Positions 11,595 to 32,212 of a stretch of 35,546 bases of DNA are shown here, piece after piece. Within the stretch, counting starts at the first letter, position 1. Every line of letters starts with the position of its first letter. Source of the DNA: Bacteroidetes bacterium GWA2_40_15 (GTDB lineage Bacteria > Bacteroidota > Bacteroidia > Bacteroidales > VadinHA17); NCBI GenBank assembly GCA_001768195.1, contig MENI01000015.1, positions 1-35,546 on the forward strand. The letters are read 5' to 3'. The notes below the pieces were generated by a model. The model did not search any database. It was given only the letters and a program-made list of their open reading frames with translations, and had not been told where the DNA came from. Position numbers and translations under genes: made by a program.

Positions 11595-11679
11595 TGTTGT
11601 AATAAATACGCATATCATTATCAGGCTATGTTCAATAAACATTTAAAGAAATATGAAATTATTAATGAAGGAAATAAAA

Positions 11680-12174: not shown

Positions 12175-12220
12175 TTGATAGACAGGGGACTCTTAATTTT
12201 TAAAATTCAGAATCATCTAT

Positions 12221-13822: not shown

Positions 13823-13906
13823 TTTTTCAGTTTAGAAAACAGGAATAGTTGTAATGAAGATTTTACTGATGCTGAAATTAAAATAAACGCAATCTCATTT
13901 AAAAAT

Positions 13907-16900: not shown

Positions 16901-16909
16901 AGGACGTGA
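13907..16909 (+). CDS. actB: Alternative complex III iron-sulfur subunit ActB
   Basis: A 1000-residue subunit of the quinol:electron acceptor oxidoreductase. A twin-arginine motif (RR at 46-47, RRDFLKVWGYSI) and Cys66 (VASC) indicate Tat export and possible lipidation. About residues 70-720 form a molybdopterin-oxidoreductase-like fold that in characterised ACIII carries no molybdenum cofactor. The C-terminal ferredoxin domain holds cysteine groups at 770/773/776/780, 825/828/833/837, 857/863/867 and 913/916/943/947. In the third group Thr860 replaces the usual second cysteine (CIGTRYC), which in ActB gives a [3Fe-4S] cluster. The architecture therefore matches three [4Fe-4S] clusters plus one [3Fe-4S]. 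It starts 84 nt after actA. Confidence 0.92.
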   Translation: MKKYWRSIEEKDDQPGSNDDEKMDESKKEFFEEMSNDLSSGTSVTRRDFLKVWGYSITAATLVASCESRVNKAIPFLIKPEEVISGIANYYASSYVDGNEYCSILVKTREGRPIKIEGNVKSGVTKGGTNARVQASILSLYDESERIKGPLHNNNKTTWENIDENVTPLLQSINAKNGKIVILSSTIISPSTKNVYKDFIKTYPNTRIIYYDAISASGILMANKNSFDQMVIPAYRFERADIIVSFGADFLGTWLSPIEFTRLYVQNRKLDGKKNMSRHIQFETGLSLTGSNADERFPIKPSEEEIMLVNLYNELLQISGNSTDIVSSSPNNIKRLANDLWSIRGKSLVLSGSNDVNIQILVNAINVLLENYGKTIDLSTPLYIKQGIDREMEDLVRDMEENKIDALIINNVNPAYDYPESDKFVNGLANLILSISFSGTIDETTSLVNYVCPDNHYLESWNDVEPRKGFFSLVQPTINPLFDTRASQESLLKWAGKDIGFFDYIQQHWENNIYPLQDEFTSKESGFKFFWIKSLQNGVFEINSPAAAEIHHKFNASVVQPAINELVSQKTDNADKIELQLVENIGVGNGKHANNPWLQELPDPISKVCWDNYVSVSPRHAAELGVENGDVVIVSSTLEQIELPVLLQPGQAYKTISIPLGYGRKNAGKVGNNIGKNAFRFCKIKDGNIQYKNDIKLIKTNKKHLLALTQTYNSMLGRPIVRETTLDQYIRNPSSGNEMHEKQQKGSVSLYKSPVHIGNHWGLSIDLNACTGCSACSIACQAENNIPVIGKEEVRKRRIMHWMRIDRYYSDSVDNPQVYHIPIMCQHCANAPCENVCPVAATMHSHDGLNHQSYNRCIGTRYCMSNCPYKVRRFNWYAYTEAEKMDSYLNSDYGRMVLNPDVIVRSRGVAEKCSLCIQRIQESETKAKLENRLLNEDEIQPACMQSCPANAILFGNLKNENSNIAKKFKDERNYHLLEEIHVLPSVGYLLKVRNQPYGRT

Positions 16910-16946
16910 CAAGAGTTTCAAACAACTATTTATAAAATAATGGAAA

Positions 16947-18299
16947 ATGTATAATACAGCAATCAGAGGACCATTAATAAAAGGGGACAAAACCATTCAT
17001 CAGATAACAGAGGAAATTTGTCAGCCTATTGATAGGCGACCCGGTTATTGGTGGTATTTTGTTTTTTTGTTATGCCTTGGGGCTTTAATTTATGGAGGTT
17101 GGGCAGTATATATCACTGTACATGAGGGTATTGGAACATGGGGGTTGAATAATTCCGTAACCTGGGGCTGGTGTATAATAAACTTTGTATGGTGGATAGG
17201 GATAGGCCATGCGGGAACAGCTTTTTCAATTTTTTTATTGGTTTTGGAACAAAAATGGAGAACCTCAATAAACCGGGCTGCCGAATTAATGACTGTGGTG
17301 GCAGTGATCTGTGCCGTTCATTTTCCTATTCTGCATATTGGCAGATTGTGGGATGGATTTTTCATTTTACCTTATCCCAATACCAGGGGTCCTTTATGGC
17401 TAAACTTTAATTCACCTTTATTTTGGGATGTTTTAGCTATTTGTACCTACTTCATGGCCTCCTCACTTTTCTGGTATGTTGGGATGATACCGGATTTGGC
17501 TACAATTCGGGACAGGACAACTTCAAAAATCAAAAGAGCTATATATGGTTTTTTATGTTTTGGCTGGATTGGTTCATCCAGAGATTGGTTTCGATATGAA
17601 AAGCTCAGTTGGATTATTGGAGGTTTAACTGCAGCGCTTGTTGTCTCGGTTCATTCAATTGTTGCCATGGACTTTGCTACATCAGTCTTGCCTGGTTGGC
17701 ATACTACCATTTTCCCCCCATATTTTGTTGTCGGAGCCATCCTCTCAGGTTTTGCAATGGTATTAACTTTAATGATAATAATTAGAAAAGTCTATAAGTT
17801 AAATGATTATATTACTGATTCACATCTTAACGCTATCTGTAAAATCCTTGTTTTTATAAGTTTGATAATGGGGACCGCATATTCTACCGAGTTATTTATG
17901 GCCTGGTACTCAAATAACGAATATGAAATGTTCACTTTTTTCCACAATAGAGTTACCGGAGAATATAATACGGCATTTTGGATAATGTTAATAAGCAATG
18001 CGATCTTGCCACAACTTTTCTGGTTTAAGAAAATTAGGAAAAAATTAGCAATTGTATTCATTATTTCATTATGCATTAACATTGGCATGTGGTTTGAACG
18101 GTATGTTATTGTTATTACTTCCCTGACAAAAGATTATTTCCCTTCCAACTGGGCCGACTACAGGCCTACAACTGTAGAAGTCGGATTATTTACGGGAACA
18201 TTTGGGTTCTTTGTACTGTGTATCTTATTGTTTTTCAAATATCTTCCTATGATCTCACTGTATGAAGTAAAAGGAGTATCGAAATATAAAAGTAATTAA
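16947..18299 (+). CDS. actC: Alternative complex III membrane subunit ActC (NrfD family)
   Basis: A 450-residue NrfD/PsrC-type membrane protein with about ten helices and the ActC-typical stretch HSIVAMDFATSVLPGWHTT followed by FPPYFVVGAILSGFAMV. This is one of two quinol-site subunits of ACIII and lies on the periplasmic face next to ActB. Typical early features such as the short cytoplasmic N-terminus, WWYFVFLLCLGALIYGG and GIGHAGTAFS are present. It starts 37 nt after actB, in one operon. Nothing is truncated. Confidence 0.92.
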   Translation: MYNTAIRGPLIKGDKTIHQITEEICQPIDRRPGYWWYFVFLLCLGALIYGGWAVYITVHEGIGTWGLNNSVTWGWCIINFVWWIGIGHAGTAFSIFLLVLEQKWRTSINRAAELMTVVAVICAVHFPILHIGRLWDGFFILPYPNTRGPLWLNFNSPLFWDVLAICTYFMASSLFWYVGMIPDLATIRDRTTSKIKRAIYGFLCFGWIGSSRDWFRYEKLSWIIGGLTAALVVSVHSIVAMDFATSVLPGWHTTIFPPYFVVGAILSGFAMVLTLMIIIRKVYKLNDYITDSHLNAICKILVFISLIMGTAYSTELFMAWYSNNEYEMFTFFHNRVTGEYNTAFWIMLISNAILPQLFWFKKIRKKLAIVFIISLCINIGMWFERYVIVITSLTKDYFPSNWADYRPTTVEVGLFTGTFGFFVLCILLFFKYLPMISLYEVKGVSKYKSN

Positions 18300-18322
18300 A
18301 TGACTATTAGATAAAATAAGAA

Positions 18323-18835
18323 ATGATTGGAACAATTTTAGGGGTTTACGAAGATGAGGAATTATTGATTTCAGCACTACAAAAACTTCAGGATGAAAAG
18401 ATTGAAATAAGTGAAGTGTTAACTCCTTATCCTGTCCATGAGGTTTTTAAAATTATGAAGAGAAAAACCAGGCTTCCTCTAGCCACTTTTCTGTTTTGTG
18501 TGTTAGGAGTAATTTTAACATATTTGTTTTTATATTGGGCCTCTGTGCTGAGCTATCCTCTTATTTTCGGTGGTAAACCACTTAATTCCATTCCTTCATT
18601 TATTCTAATCTGTTTTGTAATGATGATATTTTTCGGTGTATTTTTATCTGTTATTGCTTTTTTTGTAAGATCAAAATTATATCCCGGCAAAAAAGCTAAA
18701 ATCCATTATCCGAGAATAACCGACAATGCTTTTGTCATAATGATTGATAAAAAACCGGAAATGTCTTCCAATGACATTAAACAACTAAATTCCATCTTAA
18801 AAGATCATGGAGCGGTTGAAGTTCTGGAAAAATAG
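18323..18835 (+). CDS. actD: Alternative complex III subunit ActD (DUF3341)
   Basis: A 170-residue protein with a small ferredoxin-like N-terminal domain (MIGTILGVYEDEEL) and two membrane helices (about 51-75 and 90-115), matching the DUF3341/ActD family in size and layout. The HEVFKIMKRKTRLP linker precedes the first helix. ActD is a structural subunit without redox cofactors. It lies 23 nt after actC and 52 nt before actE. Confidence 0.88.
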   Translation: MIGTILGVYEDEELLISALQKLQDEKIEISEVLTPYPVHEVFKIMKRKTRLPLATFLFCVLGVILTYLFLYWASVLSYPLIFGGKPLNSIPSFILICFVMMIFFGVFLSVIAFFVRSKLYPGKKAKIHYPRITDNAFVIMIDKKPEMSSNDIKQLNSILKDHGAVEVLEK

Positions 18836-18887
18836 AAAAAGATTAGAATGATTTGAAATAGATTTTTCTAATAAAGATTATTTTCTT

Positions 18888-19481
18888 ATGACATTTACAA
18901 TGATGATGAGAAAAAAGTTAATGCAGAATCTGGTTATCTCTTTAATCATAGTTTTGAGCCAAATTCCAATTTCCTGTGATACGAACAGAAATTCAAGAGG
19001 ATATGAATATTTTCCTGACATGGTTTACTCAAGGGCATATGAAACTTATGCTCCCAACCCTGTGTTGCCGAATGGAATGACAGCCCAGCCCCCGGTTAAA
19101 GGGACAATTCCTGTCAACATGGTTCCATATCAATATCCAAAAACTCCTGAAGGTTTGAGATTGGCAGGATTGGAGCTGATTAACCCAGTTGAGCCCAATG
19201 AGGAAAATATTGCCCGTGGCAAATTTGAATATAATGTTTTTTGTGCCAATTGTCATGGAATTGATGGCAGAGGTGATGGAAATCTATACGCAAATGGGAA
19301 ATATCCATCGGAACCGCCTTCTTTAATAACAGAAGATATGTTGAGCAGGCCCGATGGAGAATTTTTCCATATTATAACACTTGGATCAGCCATTATGGGA
19401 CCTTTTGCTTCTCTGATACGAAGTGAAGACAAGTGGAAAGTGATTCTATATATAAAAAAGGATCTTTCAGGAAAAAACTAA
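18888..19481 (+). CDS. actE: Alternative complex III monohaem cytochrome subunit ActE
   Basis: A 197-residue lipoprotein cytochrome. The signal peptide ends in IPISC (Cys30), and the haem motif is C119-x2-C122-H123 (CANCHGIDGRGDG), with a probable Met ligand in GSAIMGPF. The N-terminal region (YEYFPDMVYSRAYETY) and the PPVKGTIP segment are typical of ActE. Several ATG codons lie close together (18888, 18900, 18903, 18906), so the exact start is uncertain. It accepts electrons within ACIII. actF begins 13 nt after its stop. Confidence 0.88.
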   Translation: MTFTMMMRKKLMQNLVISLIIVLSQIPISCDTNRNSRGYEYFPDMVYSRAYETYAPNPVLPNGMTAQPPVKGTIPVNMVPYQYPKTPEGLRLAGLELINPVEPNEENIARGKFEYNVFCANCHGIDGRGDGNLYANGKYPSEPPSLITEDMLSRPDGEFFHIITLGSAIMGPFASLIRSEDKWKVILYIKKDLSGKN

Positions 19482-19494
19482 ATACAGCAAAGTA

Positions 19495-20655
19495 ATGGAG
19501 GAAAATTATTCTGTTTCACTGACATTTAAATCTATAATTCAGGGAAGTATTATTCTGGGAGTAATTACATTTGGTTTGGGACTTTATTTTAACACTGAGA
19601 AAACCTGGGCTAACTTCTTATTAAATAACTATTACTTTATTTCAATTGTAATTGGTGCAACTTTTTTTTTAGCAATACAGTATGTTACGCAATCAGGATG
19701 GTCTGCAATGTTTGCCAGAATTCCTCATGCTATTGGTATGTATATGCCTTTAGCTGCTATTATCCTGTTTCTGATCTTTGGAATGCACTCAGTATATCAT
19801 TGGTCAATTCCCGGTGTAGCCGAGAATAATCCGGGAATAGAACATAAATCTTCATACTTAAACATTCCATTTTTCTTTATCAGGATAGTTTTCTTTTTAG
19901 CATTATGGATTTTCATGATCAGACTATTAAGAAAAACTTCATTAAAGGAGGATCATGCAAGCAATCTGAAATATTTTTACAAAAGCGAATATTATTCTAA
20001 GATATATATATTCATTCTGTCAATTTCTTTCTCACTGCTGACATTTGATTTAATCATGTCCATCGACGTGGATTGGTTTAGTACTATTTTTGCAGTAAAA
20101 AATTTTGTTTCAGCATTTTACCATGGTGTTTCCGTTATTACTCTAATTGTAATATTGCTTTATAGAAAAGGGTGTTTCAAGGATTTAAACGAGGCACATT
20201 TGCGCTATTTTTCCAGATATATTTTTATATTGGGCATCATATGGGCATATTTATGGTTTGTTCAATATTTATTAATCTGGTTTGCAAATATTCAGGAAGA
20301 AACCATATATTACGTCATACGAACTGAAGGAAAATTGAAAATATTCTTCTTTCTGGATATTATTTTGAATTGGGCAATACCCTTTTCAATTTTATTATCT
20401 GCAAGAACAAACACGAACAAATTAGTATTAATAATTGTCTGCATAATCCTGATAATTGGTCAATGGTTAGATCTTTATTTTCAGATAATGCCCGGATCAG
20501 TGGGGGAATTAAATATTGGATACATTGAGATTGGACTTTTTGCCGGTTTTGCCGGGTTGTTTATTTTTATTGTCAACAGGGCCTTAACCAAAATTCCACT
20601 TATTCCAAAAAACCATCCTTTTTTGGGGGAGAGTATTAGTAGCCATTTAGATTAA
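19495..20655 (+). CDS. actF: Alternative complex III membrane subunit ActF
   Basis: A 386-residue membrane protein with about ten helices, annotated in related genomes as quinol:cytochrome c oxidoreductase. Recognisable segments are GWSAMFARIPHAIGMYMPLA, the loop containing YLNIPFFFIRIVFF, DLIMSIDVDWFSTIF, and WAYLWFVQYLLIWFANIQEE. It pairs with ActC as the second NrfD-like membrane subunit. It is the last act gene. No cytochrome oxidase genes follow, and the next gene is on the opposite strand, so the terminal acceptor is encoded elsewhere. Confidence 0.9.
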   Translation: MEENYSVSLTFKSIIQGSIILGVITFGLGLYFNTEKTWANFLLNNYYFISIVIGATFFLAIQYVTQSGWSAMFARIPHAIGMYMPLAAIILFLIFGMHSVYHWSIPGVAENNPGIEHKSSYLNIPFFFIRIVFFLALWIFMIRLLRKTSLKEDHASNLKYFYKSEYYSKIYIFILSISFSLLTFDLIMSIDVDWFSTIFAVKNFVSAFYHGVSVITLIVILLYRKGCFKDLNEAHLRYFSRYIFILGIIWAYLWFVQYLLIWFANIQEETIYYVIRTEGKLKIFFFLDIILNWAIPFSILLSARTNTNKLVLIIVCIILIIGQWLDLYFQIMPGSVGELNIGYIEIGLFAGFAGLFIFIVNRALTKIPLIPKNHPFLGESISSHLD

Positions 20656-20810: not shown

Positions 20811-21815
20811 TTAAATGATAATACTGATAACTATCTGTAAAATTAAACCCGCTAAGAATAAGATACTGAACCTTCTGTTATATACAAAAGCATAGCTGGC
20901 AAAATATAATGGCCATGTGGTTTTTATCCCTGGAATGGGTTGAAGCGGTTTTGGTTCAAGAAATACTTTTGCAGTTTGTAAATATTTCGGCAGAGCAAGA
21001 ACAACAATTAAAAATGATAATCCGAGAATACCTTTGTAAATAAAAAAGCCGATCAGGATATATTGTAAAAGCCATATGACTATGGTTGTATGTCTTGATA
21101 CTTTTTCCCCCAGTAATACAGGTAAAGTATATACTCTTTTCTCTATATCCTTATCTGATTTATCAATATGTTTCCCGAATATTACACTTGTGGGGCCAAT
21201 TGCGTATAGAAGGCTTAGATAGATAACATCCCAGTTCCAGAATCCGTTTGAAGTGATATAATAAGCACCACCAATCATCAAAGGGCCCCAGACTATAACT
21301 ACTGTCAGTTCACCTAACCCTATGTATTTTAATGGCCAGGTATAGAACACCAGGAACAAAATGCCTGCTGCCATTAAATATATGGTTGTTGTGTCAGTTT
21401 GTAAAACAAGAAACACTCCGCAGGCAACTGCAAACAGAAGAGTAACCAGGATATACATATAGAAAGTACTGGTTGAAGTATATCCCTTTTCGACTATCTG
21501 CGGGCCATACAAAGTTCTGTAATAGTTTTCATTATCAATACCTTTCCTGTAATCAATCAGGTCGTTTAATAAATTATTTGCAGCATGGGCGAAGACCAGC
21601 CCCATCAGACAGACAATAAAATTTATGGCATTGAAAGCCCCGGTATAATAATAAGCAAGTAATCCTCCGATAGCACACGATATTGCCGTCATTATAAAAA
21701 CAGCTGACCTCGTTGCCACAAGCCACTTTGAAATAATATCGAGGGAAAACCATTCCTCCTTTGAAACCTGAGGGATAGCGGTTAATGTTTTCATCCAGAA
21801 TGTTATTGTTTTCAT
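20811..21815 (-). CDS. UbiA-family prenyltransferase, MenA-like
   Basis: A 334-residue membrane protein with about eight to nine helices. The first Asp-rich motif is NNLLNDLIDYRKGID and the second is FGKHIDKSDKDIEKR, both needed to bind prenyl diphosphate with magnesium. WPLKYIGLGELTVVIVWGPL resembles MenA, which joins the isoprenoid tail to dihydroxynaphthoate in menaquinone synthesis. A lipid or haem prenyltransferase cannot be excluded, and flavobacterial mevalonate clusters also carry a UbiA homologue. It lies 33 nt after lipA in the same direction. Its 3' end almost touches the tRNA fragment. An in-frame ATG at 21794 is an alternative start. Confidence 0.75.
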   Translation of the reverse strand: MKTITFWMKTLTAIPQVSKEEWFSLDIISKWLVATRSAVFIMTAISCAIGGLLAYYYTGAFNAINFIVCLMGLVFAHAANNLLNDLIDYRKGIDNENYYRTLYGPQIVEKGYTSTSTFYMYILVTLLFAVACGVFLVLQTDTTTIYLMAAGILFLVFYTWPLKYIGLGELTVVIVWGPLMIGGAYYITSNGFWNWDVIYLSLLYAIGPTSVIFGKHIDKSDKDIEKRVYTLPVLLGEKVSRHTTIVIWLLQYILIGFFIYKGILGLSFLIVVLALPKYLQTAKVFLEPKPLQPIPGIKTTWPLYFASYAFVYNRRFSILFLAGLILQIVISIII

Positions 21816-21848: not shown

Positions 21849-22709
21849 TTAAATATGTATGTGTTTTTCAGCATGATATGAAGATCTGACAAGTGGTCCG
21901 CTCTCTACAAAACGGAATCCTTTTTCAAGACCTGTTTTTTTGTAATGTTCAAATACCTCAGGCTTTACGTATTCCACCAGTCTTGTATGTCTTTCTGATG
22001 GTGGCAGATACTGTCCGATAGTTAATACTTTAACTCCGGCCATTAACAAATCGTCCATTGTTCTGATGACTTCTGTTTCTGATTCACCAAGGCCAACCAT
22101 AAAACCACTCTTTGTAATGAGTCCTGATCCGGAGATATATTTTAATACTTTCAGACTCTTTTCATAAGTGGCCAGACTTCTGATTCCCGGACTTATACGT
22201 TCTACAGTCTCAATATTATGTGAAATAACTTCGGGTTTCTCATTGATTACCAGATCAATGAGATCATGATTGTTATTAAAATCCGGAATCAATGTTTCAA
22301 TAGTAATTCCCGGATTTACCTTTTTAATTGTTTTGATTGTCCTGGCCCAGACAGATGCTCCCTGGTCATTAAGGTCATCTCTTGCGACTGAAGTTATGAC
22401 ACAATGTTTAAGAGCTAAGATCATTATTGCATTGGCAACACGATCGGGTTCTTCATTGTCGACCTGATCGGGCATCATTGATTTCACATAACAAAACCTG
22501 CAATTCCTTGTACATTTATCTCCCAGAATCATAAATGTTGCGGTGCCCGCACTCCAGCATTCTCCCTTATTCGGACAATTTCCGCTGCTGCAGATGGTAT
22601 TTAATTTTTGCTCATCAATGATATTTTTTACCAAAGAGTAGTTTTTCCCATGTGGCAAAGGTACCTTCATCCAGGGTGGCAGATGAGTTTTATCGGTCTT
22701 AATACTCAT
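21849..22709 (-). CDS. lipA: Lipoyl synthase
   Basis: A 286-residue radical SAM enzyme that inserts two sulfur atoms into octanoyl groups on lipoyl domains. Both cluster motifs are intact: auxiliary C-x4-C-x5-C (CSSGNCPNKGEC) and radical SAM C-x3-C-x2-C (CTRNCRFC). The conserved C-terminal RSSYHAEK is present. A good Shine-Dalgarno sequence (AGGAG) precedes the ATG. It is cotranscribed with the prenyltransferase and divergent from a flavin reductase gene. Lipoate is needed by 2-oxoacid dehydrogenases, including the branched-chain enzyme that makes isovaleryl-CoA from leucine, which may explain the placement near the leucine/mevalonate operon (inference). Confidence 0.95.
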   Translation of the reverse strand: MSIKTDKTHLPPWMKVPLPHGKNYSLVKNIIDEQKLNTICSSGNCPNKGECWSAGTATFMILGDKCTRNCRFCYVKSMMPDQVDNEEPDRVANAIMILALKHCVITSVARDDLNDQGASVWARTIKTIKKVNPGITIETLIPDFNNNHDLIDLVINEKPEVISHNIETVERISPGIRSLATYEKSLKVLKYISGSGLITKSGFMVGLGESETEVIRTMDDLLMAGVKVLTIGQYLPPSERHTRLVEYVKPEVFEHYKKTGLEKGFRFVESGPLVRSSYHAEKHIHI

Positions 22710-22818: not shown

Positions 22819-23502
22819 ATGGAAAATACATTTTTAAAGTCAGCATCTATTATAAATATTGACCGGAAGAAAATTCGCCGGATCCGTTTCTTAACGAAAA
22901 GTACTTTTGTTTTAACTTTCGATCGTGATGACATCCAGTTTACTGCAGGGCAGCATATTACAATAGGTACCCGGGGATCACTAAACCAAAGGGAATATTC
23001 AGTTTATAGTGGTGAGCAACAAAATTATCTCGAAATTCTTGTGAAGGAAGTTTTAGACGGTAATGTATCAATACAGCTAAGAAACAGTAAGCCCGGAGAT
23101 TTGCTGGAGGTAAACGGACCATTTGGATCATTCAGGCTGGAGATAAAAGATATGTATTCGAGGAAACATCTTTTTATTGCAACAGGTACCGGAATTTCGC
23201 CATTTCATAGTATGGTGACCTCTTATCCGGGAATAGACTATACAATTCTTCATGGTATACGATATATAAATGAGGCATATGATAAACATGATTACAATCC
23301 TAAAAGATATATAACCTGTACATCAAAAGAGAAAAGCTCCGGTTATAATGGGAGGGTTACGGACTATCTGTCAGATTACCAGCCTGAACCGGGTACCATA
23401 TATTATCTGTGTGGAAACAGCAGTATGATCTTTGAGGCTACAGGAATATTAAGAAATAAAGGAGTGACCGGAGATCGTATTTTAAGAGAGGTCTATTTTT
23501 AA
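22819..23502 (+). CDS. FAD/NAD(P)-binding ferredoxin reductase-type oxidoreductase
   Basis: A 227-residue two-domain flavoprotein. An FAD-binding barrel (about 15-105) has the signature REYSVYSG, and a nucleotide-binding domain (about 110-227) begins with LFIATGTGISPFHSM and ends with YYLCGNSSMI and a C-terminal aromatic residue (REVYF). No [2Fe-2S] domain is fused, so it should pass electrons between NAD(P)H and a separate ferredoxin or flavodoxin. It is divergent from lipA (109 nt between starts). Reduced ferredoxin is required by LipA, so a functional link is possible. The direction and the partner are unknown. Confidence 0.8.
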   Translation: MENTFLKSASIINIDRKKIRRIRFLTKSTFVLTFDRDDIQFTAGQHITIGTRGSLNQREYSVYSGEQQNYLEILVKEVLDGNVSIQLRNSKPGDLLEVNGPFGSFRLEIKDMYSRKHLFIATGTGISPFHSMVTSYPGIDYTILHGIRYINEAYDKHDYNPKRYITCTSKEKSSGYNGRVTDYLSDYQPEPGTIYYLCGNSSMIFEATGILRNKGVTGDRILREVYF

Positions 23503-24146: not shown

Positions 24147-25070
24147 TTAATAAACCAGTATCTGATAACCCCTTTCATTAAAATAGCTTTCTGTTTGTGA
24201 GATATTTTTCGTAAAGCCCAGAAAAAAACCTCCTCCCCCCGATCCGCATAATTTCAGATAAAACATATTATTTTCCAACCCATAATAAAAGGATTGAATA
24301 ATGTTCTCAGGAATCATTTCATTGAATATTTCAAGCTGCATATTTGTGAGTTTGCGGATAGCTGAAAAGAACCTTTCAGCATTACCGGATTCTGATAATG
24401 ATATGATACATTCATTATTCACAGGAATATACTCCTGATGTATTTTTTTAATATACTCAGGATCTGATTTGCATCTCATATTGAACTTTTCTACAAGCTC
24501 GCCGGTTTTTCTGCTAACCTGGCTGTATACCAGAAACAATCCAAATTCCTGAAGTAACATTTCAACCGGAAGTTTAAATGTTATGCCTATCTTATTTCCC
24601 TCAAGAAGCAAAGGAGTCTTAAGATAACTGACCAGCGGGTCGATGCCGGAACTGTAGCCATGATAATATGATTCAAGCAGTGCCAGACAATTTTTTATTT
24701 TCAGAATATCCATTTCGCAGTTACGGATATTTGAGTATTTATCGAAAATAGCTGCTACCAGCGCCCCTGAGCTTCCTATTCCGGATTCTTCAGGAATATC
24801 TGATTTAAAATAAAGTCCTTTTTCAATATCCTTTTCAAATGATTCAAAATCTAAGGGGAAAGTCAGCCTCTGATTTATACATGATTGTCTGGAAAAAGTG
24901 AGGAATTCCTTTAAACGATGGTTTGACCGGTCTGGTTCCCGGGATTCTTTGTCAGTGTCAGCATCCATAAATGCCAGTTCCCCCACAAACCTTTTAAAAG
25001 GTATGGTTAGTGCATATGAATTTAACAGGATTGTGTATTCTCCAAAGAGCAAAATTTTTGACGGATACAT
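24147..25070 (-). CDS. Mevalonate kinase (GHMP kinase family)
   Basis: A 307-residue GHMP-type kinase that phosphorylates mevalonate. Motif 1 is PSKILLFGEYTIL at the N-terminus; the ATP-binding loop is EESGIGSSGALVAA; the active-site region is YYHGYSSGIDPLVSYLKTPL, where Asp is the likely catalytic base; and the C-terminal motif is LCGSGGGGFFLGF. I choose the ATG at 25070, 10 nt after the decarboxylase stop; the frame extends to a GTG at 25142 inside that gene, but motif 1 starts right after the ATG. It is the last gene of the seven-gene operon. Assignment within the GHMP family rests on HG.SSGID and neighbours. Confidence 0.82.
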   Translation of the reverse strand: MYPSKILLFGEYTILLNSYALTIPFKRFVGELAFMDADTDKESREPDRSNHRLKEFLTFSRQSCINQRLTFPLDFESFEKDIEKGLYFKSDIPEESGIGSSGALVAAIFDKYSNIRNCEMDILKIKNCLALLESYYHGYSSGIDPLVSYLKTPLLLEGNKIGITFKLPVEMLLQEFGLFLVYSQVSRKTGELVEKFNMRCKSDPEYIKKIHQEYIPVNNECIISLSESGNAERFFSAIRKLTNMQLEIFNEMIPENIIQSFYYGLENNMFYLKLCGSGGGGFFLGFTKNISQTESYFNERGYQILVY

Positions 25071-25080
25071 TACTGAATGA

Positions 25081-26127
25081 TTATTTTTGAATTGATTCAG
25101 GACCTTTTCCCATAATGTCATCGATCCACATACCATCTTCACAAAAAAGTATTAGTTCCGATTTTATGAAGGAGATCATCATATCTCTGATGCTTTCAGG
25201 GTATAATAAATGGATGTTTGGCCCGGCATCTAATGTAAAGCTGAATTCAAGACCGGAATCCTGTCTGAACCTGACTATTTTATTTATTATTTGAAGGCTT
25301 TCAGGTTTAATTAAAATATAAGGAGGATCTGAAAGCAGAAACATTGAATGCAGGCTTGCTGCTTCATACTCCGTAACTTTTCTTAAAAGTTTTTCATCAC
25401 CGGTTTTCAATGCAGTTATTGATGCAAGAGCATTTTTCCTTCCGGTCTCATACTTTATTTCCTTGTATGGATTAGATTCCATTTTCGTATGACCCTGGCT
25501 GCTTGTGACTTGTTTTACACCAGAATTTACAACCAGTATTGAATCGTACCAGTTGATAAAATTTCTATGTAAAGAATCCGATAATGGTATTGCGTAATCG
25601 TCTGAAGAATGTTCAATTCCGGAAATCTCCCCCCAGAGTACCCAACCTCCGTAAATGGATCTGCAGGCACTACCTGAACCAAGTCTTGCAAGATGAGAAG
25701 CCTTTCTGAAAAATTGTTCTTCATTTTCATAGTTACCTGATACCTGCCGGTTGATTTCAATAAGACACAGTGCCAGTGAACTTATTGACGAAGCAGAAGA
25801 GGCAATACCTGCTGAATGTGGAAACGAATTCGATGTTTCTATATTCAGATGAAGATCTTTTAAGCTTGGTAATGCGTTAATGGCACTTTCAAGAAACAGA
25901 GAAGTTCTTTTTTCAAACAGAATATTTTTTTCACCCTGGAATAAAAAATCAAAAGAAGGACTCGCTGAATTTGCTTTCTTTTTATATTCCATACTTGTTT
26001 CCGTACAACATTTCGTTAAAGTCATACTAACAGAAGGATTTGCCGGTACCTGATATCCTTTTTTCCCCCAGTATTTTACCACAGCAATATTTGAAGGGCT
26101 GCGCCATGCAGTTTTTCCTGACTTCAC
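25081..26127 (-). CDS. mvaD: Diphosphomevalonate decarboxylase
   Basis: A 348-residue GHMP-fold enzyme that converts mevalonate 5-diphosphate to isopentenyl diphosphate. Strong signatures are SPSNIAVVKYWGKKG, PANPSVSMTLT, the phosphate loop HSAGIASSASSISSLA, GSACRSIYGGWVLWGE and the catalytic Asp in FTLDAGPNIHLLYP. The length is normal for the family. The start codon is GTG at 26127, and no in-frame ATG lies early enough to preserve the first motif. It is spaced 12 nt after the GHMP kinase and 10 nt before mevalonate kinase in the operon. Confidence 0.93.
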   Translation of the reverse strand: MKSGKTAWRSPSNIAVVKYWGKKGYQVPANPSVSMTLTKCCTETSMEYKKKANSASPSFDFLFQGEKNILFEKRTSLFLESAINALPSLKDLHLNIETSNSFPHSAGIASSASSISSLALCLIEINRQVSGNYENEEQFFRKASHLARLGSGSACRSIYGGWVLWGEISGIEHSSDDYAIPLSDSLHRNFINWYDSILVVNSGVKQVTSSQGHTKMESNPYKEIKYETGRKNALASITALKTGDEKLLRKVTEYEAASLHSMFLLSDPPYILIKPESLQIINKIVRFRQDSGLEFSFTLDAGPNIHLLYPESIRDMMISFIKSELILFCEDGMWIDDIMGKGPESIQK

Positions 26128-26139
26128 CTTATTGTTAAA

Positions 26140-27075
26140 TTAATTTTTTACAATCTCATCAAATCCGAAAAGAATTTCCAGTCTTTTGTCATTAAAATAT
26201 CGCCTGATGACGGTTTCATTAAGGGGTGAGGCAACCATAGCAAAATCTCCTCCCCAGGCTCCCAATGATTTGATTTCTCCTTCAAAATCGTTAAAATATT
26301 TTTCTTTGATTCTGGGCATATTTAATGTTCCTGCTATAATTTTTTCATGCTCGGTTATACTTCTGATAAATTCTTCCATATTTTCTGCTGTAGCAATTAT
26401 ATCGGTAAGACCAGTAATAATCCGACAAAGGTTTTTGTTCTTTTCAATGAATTTGAGATTATTATCTATACTGGTTGAGGTACTTTGTTTTCTTCCCAGG
26501 TAAAGAAACCAGATGAAATTTTTAAATACCGGATTAAATGCCACAGGAATAATTTCACGGGTTCCTTCCTTAAGCCGGAAGAAAACAGGAGTAGGAGATA
26601 AGGAGGCGGCAATATCATATCCCGATCCTGAGGAAACCATTTTATTCAGCTCAAACGGATCAATTCCGGCGTAATTTGCAAGATTTGAAATTAAGGTGGA
26701 ACTGCTGCCCCATCCCCAGTTCAGATTGAAATCTATCTCGCAGGTTATATTATACGACCACCCTTTTCTGAAAAAGTCCGGTTTAATGTTTCGGATACTC
26801 TTTAATAGTCTCTCAAGTTCCAGCGCTGTTCCCATATCTGATGAACTTTTAATATTTAAATCGTCACAGTTAAAGTCAGCTCTGAACCAGAGTTTTCCAA
26901 GTTCATTTGTTTTCCATTGGATATTATTTCCGGAGTCATTAATACATTCAACCTTCAACGACTGGCCAAATTTGAGTGGAACAGTAAGTGCCTTAGCCCC
27001 GGTTAATACAAAATACTCGCCTGAGATGATCAGATTACCATTTGAAAACCAGTAGTTTTGCATTTGCTGATTCAT
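26140..27075 (-). CDS. GYDIA-type GHMP kinase, candidate phosphomevalonate kinase
   Basis: A 311-residue GHMP-fold protein with NLIISGEYFVLTGAKALTVP at the N-terminus, a modified ATP loop NWGWGSSSTLISNLA, and SGSGYDIAASL, from which the family is named. The C-terminus has SLGAWGGDFAMVAS in place of a standard GGG-type motif. The mevalonate pathway needs a phosphomevalonate kinase, and the operon already encodes mevalonate kinase and the decarboxylase, so this is the obvious candidate for the missing step (inference). Its ATG overlaps the HMG-CoA reductase stop by four bases (ATGA), so translation is coupled. A second ATG at 27063 is possible. Confidence 0.8.
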   Translation of the reverse strand: MNQQMQNYWFSNGNLIISGEYFVLTGAKALTVPLKFGQSLKVECINDSGNNIQWKTNELGKLWFRADFNCDDLNIKSSSDMGTALELERLLKSIRNIKPDFFRKGWSYNITCEIDFNLNWGWGSSSTLISNLANYAGIDPFELNKMVSSGSGYDIAASLSPTPVFFRLKEGTREIIPVAFNPVFKNFIWFLYLGRKQSTSTSIDNNLKFIEKNKNLCRIITGLTDIIATAENMEEFIRSITEHEKIIAGTLNMPRIKEKYFNDFEGEIKSLGAWGGDFAMVASPLNETVIRRYFNDKRLEILFGFDEIVKN

Positions 27076-28385
27076 AAGTTTCCTCTTATGCTGGTAAGGA
27101 AATCAGAAATAGCGCTGAAAGAATACTGTTTGTTTCTGAAGTGTTCTTCAACTAATATTTTTTCAGATTCATTCACATTGAAATGGGAAAGAAAATTATT
27201 CAGATGCAATCTCATATGTCCTTTTTGAATACCATCAGTTATAAGCGAACGGATAGCTGCAAAATTACTGGCCAGTCCTACGCTTGCAACAACCTTCATT
27301 AATTCCCCCGATGTGGGGTTATTCATGATCTGAAGAGCCAATCTGGCCATAGGATGAACAGAGGTTGCTCCACCTACAGTTCCGATTGATAAAGGTATGC
27401 TGAGCCTATACCTGAACCGGTTTCCACTAATCTCAATATCAGTAAGTGCTGTATAATTACCATCCTTAGCTGCATAGGCATGACCGCATGCTTCCACTGC
27501 CCTGAAATCATTTCCTGTAGCAAGTAATACAGCATCAACACCATTGAATATTCCTTTATTATGTGTAACAGCTCTCGGAATATATTCACGTGCAATTTGA
27601 ACGGCTTTTGCGAATTTTCGGGCAAATTGCTCAGGTGTCAGGTTACCTGAAATCTCCGATAACCGGTTTATACTGCATTCTGCTGAACATTCGACAAGGC
27701 AATCAGGTGTAAAATTCGATAAAATAGCCATTATTATTTCAGCTTCCCTGTCAGTTCCCGTAAAATTACTGTTGATAAATGAAACTAATTCTGACCCCAT
27801 CGTTTCGAGGCATGAATTAATTAAGTTGGCACCCATTGAATCAACTGTATCAAAATCAACATTAACAATATGATAATCATTGTTCCCGTGGTGATCAGGA
27901 TTAAAGGTTATATCAGTTATGCCACCACCTCTTTTTTCCATATTAACTGTTAATGACTTCACAGAAGAGGCCAGTTTTTCTTTGAGGAGAGGTAACATGG
28001 ATTGTAACTTTTCAATGTTCCCATTCCAGGAAAAATAGATCTGTCCACTCTTTTTTGTCCCTGATATTTCTGATTTAAACCCCCCCTGACCGGACCAGAA
28101 TTTTGCTGCGGAAGCTGCTGCAGCCACTACTGAACTTTCTTCAGTTACCATTGGTACAAAATACCATTTATCGTTTACTCTGAAATTAGGAGCAATACTA
28201 AATGGTAATGAATAATTTGAAATGTAATTTTCAGTTAAATTTTCAATTACTCCATCAGGATCTTTATCATTTTCCCGGAAGGCAGTTAGCAGACTTATTT
28301 GCTGTTCATTAAGATTAACATTCTTCTTAAGTAAATCTATTCTCTCTGTTATGTTAAGTTTCGAAAAACCTGTCAGAACTTTCAT
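27072..28385 (-). CDS. mvaA: Class II hydroxymethylglutaryl-CoA reductase
   Basis: A 437-residue soluble enzyme that reduces HMG-CoA to mevalonate. Class II signatures are SIAPNFRVN, VPMVTEESSVVAAAA (Glu83), DSMGANLINSCLE, THNKGIFNGVDAV (catalytic Lys), ATGNDFRAVEACGHAYA (catalytic Asp) and the C-terminal GHMRLHL (catalytic His), so all four catalytic residues are present. Class II enzymes can be degradative or biosynthetic; the mevalonate kinase and decarboxylase downstream argue for biosynthesis. It sits at the join of the two halves of the operon, 24 nt after the acyl-CoA dehydrogenase gene, directly after the enzymes expected to produce HMG-CoA. Confidence 0.93.
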   Translation of the reverse strand: MKVLTGFSKLNITERIDLLKKNVNLNEQQISLLTAFRENDKDPDGVIENLTENYISNYSLPFSIAPNFRVNDKWYFVPMVTEESSVVAAAASAAKFWSGQGGFKSEISGTKKSGQIYFSWNGNIEKLQSMLPLLKEKLASSVKSLTVNMEKRGGGITDITFNPDHHGNNDYHIVNVDFDTVDSMGANLINSCLETMGSELVSFINSNFTGTDREAEIIMAILSNFTPDCLVECSAECSINRLSEISGNLTPEQFARKFAKAVQIAREYIPRAVTHNKGIFNGVDAVLLATGNDFRAVEACGHAYAAKDGNYTALTDIEISGNRFRYRLSIPLSIGTVGGATSVHPMARLALQIMNNPTSGELMKVVASVGLASNFAAIRSLITDGIQKGHMRLHLNNFLSHFNVNESEKILVEEHFRNKQYSFSAISDFLTSIRGNL

Positions 28386-28409
28386 ATTACCCGGGAAATG
28401 ATTTTTTGT

Positions 28410-29573
28410 TTACAGTCCTAAATGTCTTGAAATAAGAACTCTCAATATCTCTGAAGTGCCTTCACCAATCTGCAATATTCTCTGGTCACGGTAAAACCTC
28501 TCAATATCATTATTTTTCATTAAACCATATGCCCCATGGATCTGAACCGCTTCATCTGCAATTTCTTTTGCAATTTCGGAACAATATAATTTGATAAGAG
28601 CTGCCTCCTTTGTAAAAGGAAGTTTTGCATCCTTTTGCCAACACACTTTATACAGAGTGTTTCTGGCCAGTTCGAGCTTTATTTGCATGTCTGCCAGTTT
28701 GAATGCGATCGATTGAAATTTTCCTATCGGCTGTTCAAACTGATGACGTTTCCTGGAATATTCCAGTGCCATTTCGAATGCCCCCTGGGCGAGTCCAAGT
28801 CCGATCGCTGCAATCGAAAGCCTTCCTGAGTCGAGTGTTTCGAGCATAATGTGTGCTCCTCTGCCTCGTTCCCCAAGCAGATTTTTTTCAGGGACTCTGC
28901 AATTATTAAATGAAATTTTCCCTGTATCAACGGCCCTCCATAACATCTTATTTGAAATAGGTTCTGTTGAATAACCTGAAGTATGTTTATCAACAAGGAT
29001 AACTGAAAGCTCTTTCTTATTGTTTCTTTCTCCGGAAATAGCTAAAACTGTAATACCGGCTGAACAATCGGATGCAGAATTTGTGATAAAAAGTTTTGAT
29101 CCGTTTATATTCCATTTTCCATCAGATAATTCAGCTTTGGTTTTAATCCTGGTAACATCTGAACCTGCATCAGCTTCAGTCAGGCCAAATGCCCATAATG
29201 AATCACCAGTGGTTAGTTTAGGCAAATAGTGTGACTTTTGTTCTTTTGTTCCATAATTACAGATTGGAGCTATTCCCAGTGAATTATGTGCTGCAACTGT
29301 TGCTGCCTGCGAACTATCGACCCTCGCCAGTTCTTCAACAGCAATGATATATGATAGCGTATCGAGGTTCTGCCCCCCGTATTCTTTTGGTATGGTTATC
29401 CCTAGTAGCCCGATTTCCCCCATACGTTTGGTTAATTGTTGGGAGAATCTTGCTTCATCATCCAGCTTTGCGGCAATTGGTCTGATTTCCTTCTCAGCAA
29501 AATCTCTTATTTTCGATCTGAGTTCAATGTGATTTTTTTTTATTAAGGGATTTGTATTTAAATCATTCTGCAT
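28410..29573 (-). CDS. Acyl-CoA dehydrogenase, probable isovaleryl-CoA dehydrogenase role
   Basis: A 387-residue FAD enzyme of normal family length. Signatures are WAFGLTEADAGSDVTRIKTK, the FAD loop QFEQPIGKFQSIAFKLADMQ, QIHGAYGLMKNNDIERFYRD and the C-terminal IGEGTSEILRVLISR. Its neighbours are leucine-degradation genes, so isovaleryl-CoA is the expected substrate. However, it has Glu in GEGTSE, the catalytic position of butyryl/medium-chain enzymes, whereas classical isovaleryl-CoA dehydrogenases usually have IGAGTSE there and a Glu elsewhere. The substrate is therefore less certain than the family. It lies 13 nt after the hydratase gene and 24 nt before the HMG-CoA reductase gene. Confidence 0.88.
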   Translation of the reverse strand: MQNDLNTNPLIKKNHIELRSKIRDFAEKEIRPIAAKLDDEARFSQQLTKRMGEIGLLGITIPKEYGGQNLDTLSYIIAVEELARVDSSQAATVAAHNSLGIAPICNYGTKEQKSHYLPKLTTGDSLWAFGLTEADAGSDVTRIKTKAELSDGKWNINGSKLFITNSASDCSAGITVLAISGERNNKKELSVILVDKHTSGYSTEPISNKMLWRAVDTGKISFNNCRVPEKNLLGERGRGAHIMLETLDSGRLSIAAIGLGLAQGAFEMALEYSRKRHQFEQPIGKFQSIAFKLADMQIKLELARNTLYKVCWQKDAKLPFTKEAALIKLYCSEIAKEIADEAVQIHGAYGLMKNNDIERFYRDQRILQIGEGTSEILRVLISRHLGL

Positions 29574-29586
29574 AAGATTGCTTTTA

Positions 29587-30360
29587 TTAATTCTTCGATA
29601 AAAACTTCGTCATTCTTGCCACTGCATCATCTGACATCTTCATTCTTGTAATTGTTTTAACGGTTTTCCTGATATTGTAAGAATTTATATTTTTCTTGTT
29701 TAATGCTCTTAACAGATGCTTCGTCTCTGTTAAGGCTTGGGGAGAAGCCTTATAAATATTCTGTATCAATTCATTTGCCTTCAGTTCCATATCGTTAAGA
29801 TCTTCATAAATCTTATCAATAAGTCCTATTTGAAGCGCCTCTTCAGCAGTGAAAATTTCTCCGCTAAAAATCTGGAATTTAACATCTGCATGGTTTACTC
29901 TTGTCAATAGATAAGGCATTATTACCGATGGAACCAATCCTAATCTTAATTCAGGCAGGCGGAAAATGGAATTTTTAAGTCCTAACGTTAAATCACCTGC
30001 ACCTATGAACCCTAATCCCCCACCGAAGACGTCACCATGAACCAGATTAATAACCACTTTATCTGATTGGTAGATTAGTTTAAAACATATTGCGAGTTTC
30101 TTGCTGTCGCTGTAACACTTCTTATATCCCGGAGACCCTGAATTTTTCATCCAGTTAATATCAGCTCCCGAACAAAATGATTTTCCTCTGCCTCTTATGA
30201 GGATTACCATAAGCTTCTTTTGCTCATTAATCCATCTGAAAGCTTTGATTAACTCTTCAATTGTTGCCAGGTTTAAAGCATTCCTTATATCAGGCTGATT
30301 TAGCCATACAGTAACCTGTCTATCCTTAATTTCAATTTCAATCCTTTTTAGATTCAGCAT
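29587..30360 (-). CDS. Enoyl-CoA hydratase family, probable 3-methylglutaconyl-CoA hydratase
   Basis: A 257-residue crotonase-fold protein. It has the LiuC-like oxyanion segment KSFCSGADINWMKN and HGDVFGGGLGFIGAGDL, followed by FRLPELRLGLVPSVIMPYLL. The ADINWMK motif and the PSVIMPYL stretch are typical of methylglutaconyl-CoA hydratases, which turn 3-methylglutaconyl-CoA into HMG-CoA. Its placement directly after the methylcrotonyl-CoA carboxylase beta gene (15 nt gap) supports that reaction. The C-terminus (DDAVARMTKFLSKN) is complete. Other enoyl-CoA hydratase activities cannot be excluded from sequence alone. Confidence 0.85.
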   Translation of the reverse strand: MLNLKRIEIEIKDRQVTVWLNQPDIRNALNLATIEELIKAFRWINEQKKLMVILIRGRGKSFCSGADINWMKNSGSPGYKKCYSDSKKLAICFKLIYQSDKVVINLVHGDVFGGGLGFIGAGDLTLGLKNSIFRLPELRLGLVPSVIMPYLLTRVNHADVKFQIFSGEIFTAEEALQIGLIDKIYEDLNDMELKANELIQNIYKASPQALTETKHLLRALNKKNINSYNIRKTVKTITRMKMSDDAVARMTKFLSKN

Positions 30361-30375
30361 AATAATTTTTATTGC

Positions 30376-31989
30376 TTACATTCTGTAAACCCCTGTCTTT
30401 GGTTCAGGAAAGGGTTTGTTCAGCGACATTGATATTCCCATAGCTAAAACTTTCCGTGTATCGACAGGATCGATTATACCATCATCCCAGATTCTTGAAG
30501 TACTATACAGAGCTGAACTTTCAGCTTCAAAATTCTGCAATATTTTCTGTTTTAGTCTTGTCTCATCAGCGGTTAATTGGTCAGTACTTCTGTTCTTTTG
30601 TTTTATGCTGATCAATACCTCTGCAGCCTGTTCACCTCCCATGACTGAAATTTTTGAGTTTGGCCAGATAAATAAAAGGTTTGGCTGGTACGCCCTGCCT
30701 GCCATTGCATAGTTTCCAGCGCCTGAAGAGCTGCCGATAATAATGGTAAATTTTGGCACATTTGCAGTGGCAACTGCCTGGATCATTTTGGCTCCGTCTT
30801 TTGCAATGCCTTTGTGTTCATATTCTTTTCCAACCATAAACCCTGCTATATTCTGTAAAAATATCATAGGGATATTCCTGTTACAGCATATCTCAATAAA
30901 ATGGGTAGCTTTCAATGTAGATTCCGGAAACAGAATCCCATTATTGGCAATAATACCCACATTATATCCCATTATCCTGGCAAATCCGGTAATTATTGAT
31001 TTCCCATAATTGGCTTTAAATTCCTGTAAACAACTTGCGTCGACCAGCCTTGCAATAATCTCGTACATGTTTATACCCTTTTTAAGGTTTGCGGGCATAA
31101 TTCCATAAATATCATCGATCGGATACAGGGGTGCGACGGATTCTTTTCTGTCAGTGAACTGTTTTTGCTTTTTATTAATGTGTTCAAATATGTTTCTGCA
31201 TAACAATATTGCATCTTGTTCATTTTCAGCTAAATGATCGGCAACCCCGGAAATGGAAGTGTGAATATCTGCTCCTCCTAGTTCTTCAACAGTAACAATT
31301 TCACCTGTGGCTGCTTTTACAAGGGGTGGACCGGCCAGAAAAATGGATCCTGTGTCTCTGACAATTATGCTTTCATCGCTCATTGCGGGGATATAGGCGC
31401 CACCGGCAGTACAGGAACCCATGACTAATGCAACCTGAGGGATTCTTTCGGCTGACAATTTTGCCTGATTGAAGAAAATTTTTCCAAAATGGTCACTGTC
31501 AGGATAAACATTTGCCTGCTCAGGTAAATAGATACCACCTGAATCAACCAGATAGACGATGGGCAGATTATTACTCAATGCTATTTCCTGTGCTCTTAAA
31601 TGCTTTTTGATTGTTTCACTGACGTATGTTCCACCTTTAACAGTAGCATCGTTAGCTATAATTATGGTCTCCATACCTTCAATGACTCCCAGTCCGGTAA
31701 TTATACCGGCTCCCGGAAACTGATTATTGTATTTTTCATATGCAGCAAGCTGAGAGAATTCGAGAAAAGGAGTGTTCTTATCTGTCAGTAGTTTTATTCT
31801 TTCACGAGCAAGGAGTTTTCCTCTCTTCCTGTGTTGTAATAAAACTTTCTCATCCCTGCTGTTTTGAGATGCGCTTAATATCTTTTGAATATTCTTACTT
31901 AAAGATTTATTATAGTGATAATTAGTAATAAATTCATCAGATTGGGTTTTTACCCTTGTCTTTAAAACAACCATAGATATTTTGGACAT
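30376..31989 (-). CDS. Methylcrotonyl-CoA carboxylase beta (carboxyltransferase) subunit
   Basis: A 537-residue biotin-dependent carboxyltransferase with the expected two crotonase-like halves. Segments GGAYIPAMSDESIIVRDTGS, IFLAGPPLVKAATGE and later SSSGAGNYAMAGRAYQPN and FIWPNSKISVMGGEQAAEVL match the methylcrotonyl-CoA rather than the propionyl-CoA enzymes. It would carboxylate 3-methylcrotonyl-CoA to 3-methylglutaconyl-CoA, the step before the next gene's reaction. The biotin-carboxylase/biotin-carrier alpha subunit is not in the window. It is the first gene of the seven-gene operon. ATG 31989 is used; ATG 31974 is an alternative. Confidence 0.9.
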   Translation of the reverse strand: MSKISMVVLKTRVKTQSDEFITNYHYNKSLSKNIQKILSASQNSRDEKVLLQHRKRGKLLARERIKLLTDKNTPFLEFSQLAAYEKYNNQFPGAGIITGLGVIEGMETIIIANDATVKGGTYVSETIKKHLRAQEIALSNNLPIVYLVDSGGIYLPEQANVYPDSDHFGKIFFNQAKLSAERIPQVALVMGSCTAGGAYIPAMSDESIIVRDTGSIFLAGPPLVKAATGEIVTVEELGGADIHTSISGVADHLAENEQDAILLCRNIFEHINKKQKQFTDRKESVAPLYPIDDIYGIMPANLKKGINMYEIIARLVDASCLQEFKANYGKSIITGFARIMGYNVGIIANNGILFPESTLKATHFIEICCNRNIPMIFLQNIAGFMVGKEYEHKGIAKDGAKMIQAVATANVPKFTIIIGSSSGAGNYAMAGRAYQPNLLFIWPNSKISVMGGEQAAEVLISIKQKNRSTDQLTADETRLKQKILQNFEAESSALYSTSRIWDDGIIDPVDTRKVLAMGISMSLNKPFPEPKTGVYRM

Positions 31990-32135: not shown

Positions 32136-32137
32136 CG

Positions 32138-32212
32138 GGTGGAAGATGGGATTCGAACCCACGACCTTCGGAACCACAATCCGACGTTCTAACCGACTGA
32201 ACTACATCCACC
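32138..32212 (-). tRNA. tRNA-His (GTG)
   Basis: On the minus strand a 75-nt cloverleaf without encoded CCA. It has the tRNA-His-specific extra G at -1 facing C73, acceptor GTGGATG/CTTCCAC, D stem GTTC/GAAC, anticodon stem TCGGA/TCCGA with loop TTGTGGT and anticodon GTG (plus strand 32175-32177), and T arm GTGGG-TTCGAAT-CCCAT. The only flaw is a U6-U67 mismatch in the acceptor stem. A 30-nt degenerate copy of its 3' end lies at 20779-20808. Confidence 0.95.

Follow-up and report, generated by a model that had tools for sequence, protein, structure and literature searches.

A Bacteroidales operon that may join leucine degradation to the mevalonate pathway

Genes of the operon

The window analysed here is a stretch of 35,546 nucleotides, contig MENI01000015.1 of Bacteroidetes bacterium GWA2_40_15, and it carries an operon of seven intact genes on the minus strand (24147-31989). 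In 5' to 3' order the predicted products are the beta subunit of a methylcrotonyl-CoA carboxylase (MCC), a methylglutaconyl-CoA hydratase-type crotonase, an acyl-CoA dehydrogenase (ACD), a 3-hydroxy-3-methylglutaryl-CoA (HMG-CoA) reductase (HMGR), a GYDIA-family kinase, a diphosphomevalonate decarboxylase and a mevalonate kinase (Table 1). The intergenic distances from the first to the seventh gene are 15, 13, 24, -4, 12 and 10 nt, the last one measured from the ATG at 25070. This codon was taken as the start of the mevalonate kinase gene; a longer mechanical open reading frame from the GTG at 25142 runs into the preceding gene, and the ortholog in locus L003 (loci, genomes and contigs are labelled L, G and C), which also has 307 residues, supports the shorter frame. 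A preliminary description, made from the letters of the window, had listed seven minus-strand genes with gaps of 10-24 nt and one 4-nt overlap, and coordinates and spacing agree with it. Compared with L003, the nearest relative, dN/dS was 0.059-0.179 across the seven genes at a dS of 1.2-1.9, which is near saturation; compared with L002, dS was saturated. A scan for sigma-70 promoters was uninformative, with 36 sites found and 28.7 expected by chance. The seven-gene operon is confirmed as real, and it is more than a chance arrangement because the gene order recurs in other genomes and dN/dS is 0.06-0.18.

Table 1. Predicted genes of the operon and neighbouring features of the window
Feature	Length	Position	Strand	Supporting match
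MCC beta (carboxyl transferase)	537 aa	30376..31989	-	PF01039, 487 bits
Methylglutaconyl-CoA hydratase-type crotonase	257 aa	29587..30360	-	ECH_1, 128 bits
ACD, presumed isovaleryl-CoA-oxidising	387 aa	28410..29573	-	acyl-CoA dehydrogenase domains
Class II HMGR	437 aa	27072..28385	-	TIGR00532, 276 bits (cut-off 260); PF00368
GYDIA-family GHMP kinase, candidate phosphomevalonate kinase	311 aa	26140..27075	-	NF040656, 297 bits (cut-off 225)
Diphosphomevalonate decarboxylase, GTG start	348 aa	25081..26127	-	TIGR01240, 157 bits (cut-off 171)
Divergent mevalonate kinase	307 aa	24147..25070	-	TIGR00549, 86 bits (cut-off 163)
tRNA-His, upstream boundary of the operon, outside the pathway		32137..32211	-	ARAGORN
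FAD oxidoreductase gene, convergent, downstream boundary of the operon		22819-23502		
Lipoyl synthase LipA, downstream neighbour		21849..22709	-	TIGR00510, 343 bits
UbiA/MenA-like prenyltransferase, downstream neighbour		20811..21815	-	UbiA, 99 bits; MenA models below cut-off

The identities of the leucine-side enzymes were judged against PDB and NCBIfam. The carboxyl transferase scored 656 bits against the human MCC beta chain and 628 bits against another MCC beta; 9tps, deposited as a propionyl-CoA carboxylase beta, scored 645 bits. Among the other carboxylases the geranyl-CoA enzyme reached 434 bits and a propionyl-CoA carboxylase 265 bits. MCC beta is thus firmly predicted for the first gene, and geranyl-CoA carboxylase was rejected on its score of 434 against 656 bits. 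The best NCBIfam model for the crotonase was gamma-carboxygeranoyl-CoA hydratase (169 bits, far below the cut-off of 426), and the protein aligned with PDB 4kpk across the motif LxExxLGLxPxVIxPY. No model matched it above its cut-off, and it is assigned as a putative methylglutaconyl-CoA hydratase by its nearest family and its context.

On the mevalonate side, the best PDB relative of HMGR was 7n7s (398 bits), and TIGR00532, the model that HMGR matches above cut-off, is named degradative. In PDB the GYDIA profile showed weak similarity to mevalonate kinase chains of the archaeal type (E 2e-9), and the GYDIA kinase is a candidate for the phosphomevalonate kinase step. The decarboxylase matched (di)phosphomevalonate decarboxylases in PDB (18 sequences), and its SGSACRS and DAGPN motifs aligned with 6n0x, a solved diphosphomevalonate decarboxylase. 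The predicted mevalonate kinase resembled a mevalonate kinase in PDB only weakly (E 0.0055). Both the decarboxylase and the mevalonate kinase had the right family as their best NCBIfam match, at scores below the curated cut-offs.

Linked loci in relatives and the HMGR clade

Named genomes were scanned with HMGR, and the best 80 of 577 loci were inspected, with at least 3 kb of upstream sequence in 63 of them and less in 17. In nine of these 80 loci leucine-degradation genes adjoin HMGR on the same strand, and these were called linked. A further 40 loci came from six genomes of the order and from 34 of the 87 other HMGR-bearing genomes in a class sample of 296, and two of them were linked, which brings the total to 12 with the window counted. 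MCC beta adjoins HMGR in seven of the 12 (the window, L002, L003, L017, L059, L071 and L152). The fullest operon, present in L017, L071 and L152, has nine genes in the order MCC beta, hydratase, MCC alpha, ACD, fni, HMGR, GYDIA kinase, decarboxylase and mevalonate kinase. L059 has the same layout minus fni; MCC alpha is missing from the operon in the window, L002 and L003, and fni also in the window and L002. Several relatives have a gene of about 335 aa that separates ACD from HMGR; it was considered as an HMG-CoA lyase and rejected, as it is a type 2 isopentenyl diphosphate isomerase (190 bits, cut-off 281). The named carriers of the operon are Tangfeifania diversioriginum, whose operon has nine genes, Thermophagus xiamenensis and metagenome-assembled genomes (MAGs) of Labilibaculum. 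G320, where a biotin carboxylase match (46%) lies a few kb upstream of fni-HMGR and other leucine genes are absent, was not counted as linked.

The 12 linked sequences formed a single group together with three from Marinifilum (SH-aLRT 95) in a quick tree of 110 HMGRs, on which the linkage label required two changes, as compared to 11.6 in shuffles. The same group of 15 was recovered in a careful tree of 63 hand-chosen rows (all 15 members and 48 others; root not inferred), with support of 97/90. L152 is a long branch, and its join with L017 was flagged in the quick tree. The Marinifilum HMGRs have no adjoining ACD. Within the clade the identity of HMGR to that of the window falls to 44-51%. 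The simplest reading of the trees would be one origin of the linkage and one loss in Marinifilum.

A distant second type of HMGR (24% identity to that of the window, or no tblastn match) was seen in nine of the 40 further loci (L143, L145-L150, L155 and L156). These loci belong to dxr-positive genomes and have no matches nearby to the GYDIA kinase, decarboxylase or mevalonate kinase of the window.

HMG-CoA synthase, HMG-CoA lyase and dxr

The genome searched comprises 4.77 Mb in 127 contigs and is 99.98% complete. HMG-CoA synthase was not found in it with any of four queries, namely TIGR01835, PF08540, TIGR00748 and a Bacteroidota synthase. TIGR01835 gave only 28 bits, to FabH, and no match at E 1e-12; TIGR00748 matched just the same FabH. 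There were zero matches to PF08540 in this genome and in 60 relatives. The Bacteroidota query, a synthase of 513 aa from an Aureispira MAG that itself scores 266 bits to TIGR01835 (below the cut-off of 360), had no match in the genome. In the TIGR01835 search the controls Lactococcus and four of four archaea were matched, but so were E. coli and B. subtilis, and the threshold is thus loose rather than strict. The beta-ketoacyl-ACP synthase (KAS) III protein on contig C26 was considered as a hidden HMG-CoA synthase and rejected, being FabH with 412 bits to beta-ketoacyl-ACP synthase 3.

HMG-CoA lyase was likewise not found in the genome with NF004283. The two matches, both at 42 bits, were frames of 500 and 518 aa, which were rejected as LeuA/CimA relatives (71% and 64% to Tangfeifania proteins). 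As neither synthase nor lyase was found, carbon of the leucine skeleton is the sole evident entry to HMG-CoA and mevalonate its sole evident exit.

The clusters of two relatives, G041 and G064, show which last enzyme HMGR would have replaced. Both have a leucine-degradation cluster with the order MCC beta, hydratase, MCC alpha, ACD and lyase, and HMGR elsewhere in the genome; no HMGR match was found within the lyase-ending stretches. The lyase of the G064 cluster scores 146 bits to NF004283 (cut-off 246), and the assembly of G064 has interrupted MCC frames. These liu operons share with the window MCC beta, the hydratase and the same ACD family (63-64% identity) in the same order, but they end in the lyase, whereas the window has HMGR and the lower mevalonate genes in its place. 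An isovaleryl-CoA role of this ACD family is suggested because of this gene context and not by the active site.

Across 19 genomes searched for the lyase, no match above 62 bits was obtained in any of nine linked genomes, whereas a match of at least 126 bits was present in six of the seven genomes with unlinked HMGR (only that of G077 above the curated cut-off, that of G073 partial; G083 had none). The difference gave a Fisher p of 0.0009, uncorrected for kinship and with the linked genomes being one clade. The lyase was also not found in G009, G011 and G023, which are without HMGR. In the linked genomes synthase was found in 0 of 11 and dxr in 11 of 11 (the genome of L015 left out; G050 in two pieces).

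Proposed route, rival explanations and significance

We propose, with a probability of roughly 0.8, that the operon is a leucine-degradation (liu-type) operon in which the terminal lyase has been replaced by HMGR and the lower mevalonate pathway. Gene content, gene order, conservation, clade and the absences in profile searches are observed, and we infer the substrates, the direction of flux and the sharing of subunits. Isovaleryl-CoA would be formed by enzymes outside the operon, either from 2-ketoisocaproate (derived from leucine or from leucine biosynthesis) or from isovalerate. ACD would oxidise it to 3-methylcrotonyl-CoA, and MCC, composed of the beta subunit of the operon and a biotin carboxylase and carrier from elsewhere, would carboxylate this to 3-methylglutaconyl-CoA. 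The hydratase would then yield HMG-CoA, HMGR would reduce it to mevalonate, and the two kinases and the decarboxylase would convert mevalonate to isopentenyl diphosphate, beside the methylerythritol phosphate (MEP) pathway. MCC carboxylates a methyl carbon; the carboxylate formed in this way is the free one of HMG-CoA, and it is lost again in the decarboxylase step. All five isovaleryl carbons should thus enter the isoprene unit, with bicarbonate serving as a mere handle.

A number of observations weigh against this proposal. The genome has dxr of the MEP pathway; with MEP judged from dxr, mevalonate is one of two isoprenoid routes, and the operon route is therefore not required for growth by itself. 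HMGR was found in only 2 of 37 genomes of the genus, and linkage is lacking in the majority of HMGR loci (71 of the best 80 of 577, and 38 of the further 40). Five of the 12 linked loci show ACD alone (L009, L015 and L020) or MCC alpha and ACD (L007 and L154, the latter beginning at a contig edge). ACD scores higher against short-chain and other acyl-CoA dehydrogenases (352-300 bits) than against isovaleryl-CoA dehydrogenase chains (240-211 bits). True isovaleryl-CoA dehydrogenases carry the catalytic Glu at a different position from the usual one of acyl-CoA dehydrogenases, and the latter is where the Glu of ACD lies, in IGEGTSE, in the 10 of 12 operon copies aligned (L152 and L154 left out). 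Judged by this residue, ACD is not a canonical isovaleryl-CoA dehydrogenase. Further, a dedicated biotin-bearing MCC alpha was not found by a biotin carboxylase profile search of the genome. The sole strong match, on C94 (393 bits; next best 46 bits), sits in a cluster of carboxyl transferase, biotin carboxylase and carrier. That biotin carboxylase-carrier pair also occurs in G001, G009, G011 and G023, members of the genus that have no HMGR. With no dedicated MCC alpha found, MCC beta would have to borrow the carboxylase and carrier subunits of C94. MCC alpha is present in G056, G066, G067, G071, G082 and G084.

The absence of the synthase was also put in a wider frame. Synthase and dxr were searched in 80 of 116 HMGR-bearing genomes, 30 having been dropped as the second genome of a genus together with six others. 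At E 1e-12 a synthase match was obtained in 1 of 41 genomes with dxr and in 9 of 39 without it, one of these nine (G178) at just 48 bits; when the left-out G076 and G085 are added, in which a synthase is known and dxr is lacking, the latter count becomes 11 of 41. The remaining 30 of the 39 dxr-negative genomes (27 from the class sample at a completeness of at least 90%, three reached through loci) had no synthase match. As dxr-negative genomes are so commonly without one, absence of the synthase proves nothing by itself; these genomes have either an unrecognised synthase or a widespread leucine route. In the clade of the window it is the conjunction of fixed adjacency with no synthase and no lyase found that points to leucine.

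The preliminary description had seen neither synthase nor lyase in the window and had held that HMG-CoA made from leucine is channelled to isoprenoids. Both absences extend to the whole-genome profile searches, and a gene order shared with related genomes was found and is confined to one HMGR clade. The channelling is thus supported by the genomic checks, with the corrections that it is not the sole route, dxr being present, and that no dedicated MCC alpha was found for it. The family calls of the description were upheld as well, except that its dehydrogenase is not the canonical isovaleryl-CoA enzyme.

The best surviving rival holds that the mevalonate genes receive HMG-CoA made from acetyl-CoA by a divergent, unrecognised synthase, the leucine genes being mere co-regulated neighbours. 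The 30 dxr-negative genomes without a synthase match, which must have another source of HMG-CoA, and the many unlinked HMGR loci would fit with it. However, the only KAS III-fold match of the genome is the clear FabH, and the TIGR01835 search, loose as its threshold is, did match its Lactococcus and archaeal controls. A divergent synthase would also leave unexplained why the lyase was not found in all nine linked genomes and why the gene order is fixed, and we consider it improbable.

Another possibility is that the operon runs in reverse, a degradative HMGR oxidising mevalonate to HMG-CoA and further to isovaleryl-CoA for iso-branched fatty acids, like the alternative route of myxobacteria. 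The myxobacterial route from HMG-CoA is documented (PMC9548883), the HMGR matches the model named degradative, and the best NCBIfam match of ACD, far below its cut-off, is acryloyl-CoA reductase. Still, no synthase was found that could make HMG-CoA, so external mevalonate would be needed, and no use would remain for the decarboxylase, for the two kinases or for the isopentenyl diphosphate isomerase that several relatives have. The carboxyl transferase is, moreover, of the MCC and not of the glutaconyl-CoA decarboxylase type (656 vs 161 bits), and we consider the reverse direction highly improbable. That the locus is a relic or an accidental fusion of two operons without a current joint function, its mevalonate genes being dispensable given MEP, would agree with the presence of dxr, with HMGR in only two genus members and with MCC alpha being absent from the window's operon, but it is scarcely credible for seven intact frames under the dN/dS given above in an arrangement kept through one deep clade down to 44-51% HMGR identity.

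Neighbouring genes give some indications of the source and product of the proposed leucine-to-mevalonate route. In Tangfeifania diversioriginum (L195, 1667-8608) the genes leuA, leuC, leuD, a cimA-like gene, a gene of 121 aa and leuB stand directly upstream of the operon on the same strand, with leuB ending 163 bp before MCC beta; the arrangement was seen in that single genome. This points to newly synthesised 2-ketoisocaproate as a possible feed of the operon. A separate leucine cluster of G067 (L171, 11659-15924) contains an AtuA-family gene and a butyrate kinase, and no lyase was found in G067; isovalerate as a source would fit with these two genes. LipA orthologs adjoin the operon in L002 and L007, and L003 has only a match of 29 residues; any connection of LipA with a keto acid dehydrogenase that depends on lipoyl groups is conjectural. 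UbiA/MenA-like prenyltransferases adjoin the operon in five linked loci (the window, L002, L003, L152 and L154) and belong to two families with 25% identity, the second of which follows directly after the mevalonate kinase (L152, 12799-13728; L154, 9755-10681). They hint at a prenyl-quinone as the product of the operon, and the prenyltransferase of the window may be a consumer of the isoprenoid diphosphate.

The window also contains a respiratory cluster (11653-20655) with cytochromes c, a Qrc-like multihaem cytochrome, a molybdopterin-like and iron-sulfur protein of 1000 aa and a membrane protein of the NrfD/DsrP type; upstream of it lie a cytochrome c assembly protein and regulators of the CRP type. 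We presume that it resembles alternative complex III.

The chemistry of the proposed route is already known as the leucine shunt; what seems to be new is a dedicated operon in a genome where neither synthase nor lyase was found. To our knowledge, leucine-fed isoprenoids in the archaeon, the trypanosomatids and the myxobacteria have always been found beside an HMG-CoA synthase. Of the enzyme set of the shunt, MCC beta, the hydratase and HMGR are present here, and a dedicated MCC alpha and a canonical isovaleryl-CoA dehydrogenase were not found. According to the excerpts available of the papers cited here, the shunt was shown by labelling in Halobacterium salinarum and Leishmania mexicana (PMC8791446), and in Trypanosoma brucei deletion of isovaleryl-CoA dehydrogenase abolished the incorporation of leucine into sterols (PMC5993337). 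T. brucei also has an HMG-CoA synthase gene (PMC5993337), whereas in the genome of the window synthase and lyase were not found and dxr coexists with the operon. No operon uniting both halves is mentioned in the excerpts of these two papers, in contrast to the united operon described here. In a myxobacterial sesquiterpene label appeared from dimethylacrylate but not from acetate (PMC7321100). Myxobacteria, in addition, use an HMG-CoA synthase and the aib operon to convert HMG-CoA to isovaleryl-CoA (PMC9548883), while no synthase was found here.

The mevalonate pathway of Flavobacteriaceae lacks a classical phosphomevalonate kinase (PMC4026382), as does the operon. There, however, the excerpt reads mevalonate as replacing MEP with only phosphomevalonate kinase missing, whereas here dxr is kept and the synthase was not found. 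A review covers several bacteria in which the MEP and mevalonate pathways coexist (PMC13001223), and genes of both are stated for Bacteroidota isolates from the Black Sea (PMC11129491). In the excerpts of these two sources the mevalonate pathway is not described as joined to leucine degradation, and PMC13001223 does not contain the word leucine. Among the matches listed in open-access literature, which leaves most subscription papers outside, we found no description of a leucine-mevalonate operon or of a synthase-less variant, none linking GYDIA with mevalonate and none on a missing synthase in Bacteroidetes.

A broader version of the proposal has two parts. In a Bacteroidales clade a third way to isoprenoids would lead from pyruvate through 2-ketoisocaproate, isovaleryl-CoA and HMG-CoA to mevalonate, free of synthase and beside MEP for a particular product; and dxr-negative HMGR genomes without a recognised synthase would obtain all their isoprenoids from carbon of the leucine skeleton. 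Both parts together are speculative and rather doubtful.

The findings raise the question of where HMG-CoA comes from in bacteria that have HMGR and no recognisable synthase. The operon is present in cultured strains, among them Tangfeifania diversioriginum DSM 27063 and Thermophagus xiamenensis DSM 19012. The route is compact and should keep all five isovaleryl carbons, which would be useful in engineering. If confirmed, it would give isoprenoids a second route, fed by an amino acid and running beside the ordinary one, and the operon, kept through a deep clade with neither synthase nor lyase found, would show that carbon from amino acids alone can sustain a mevalonate pathway.

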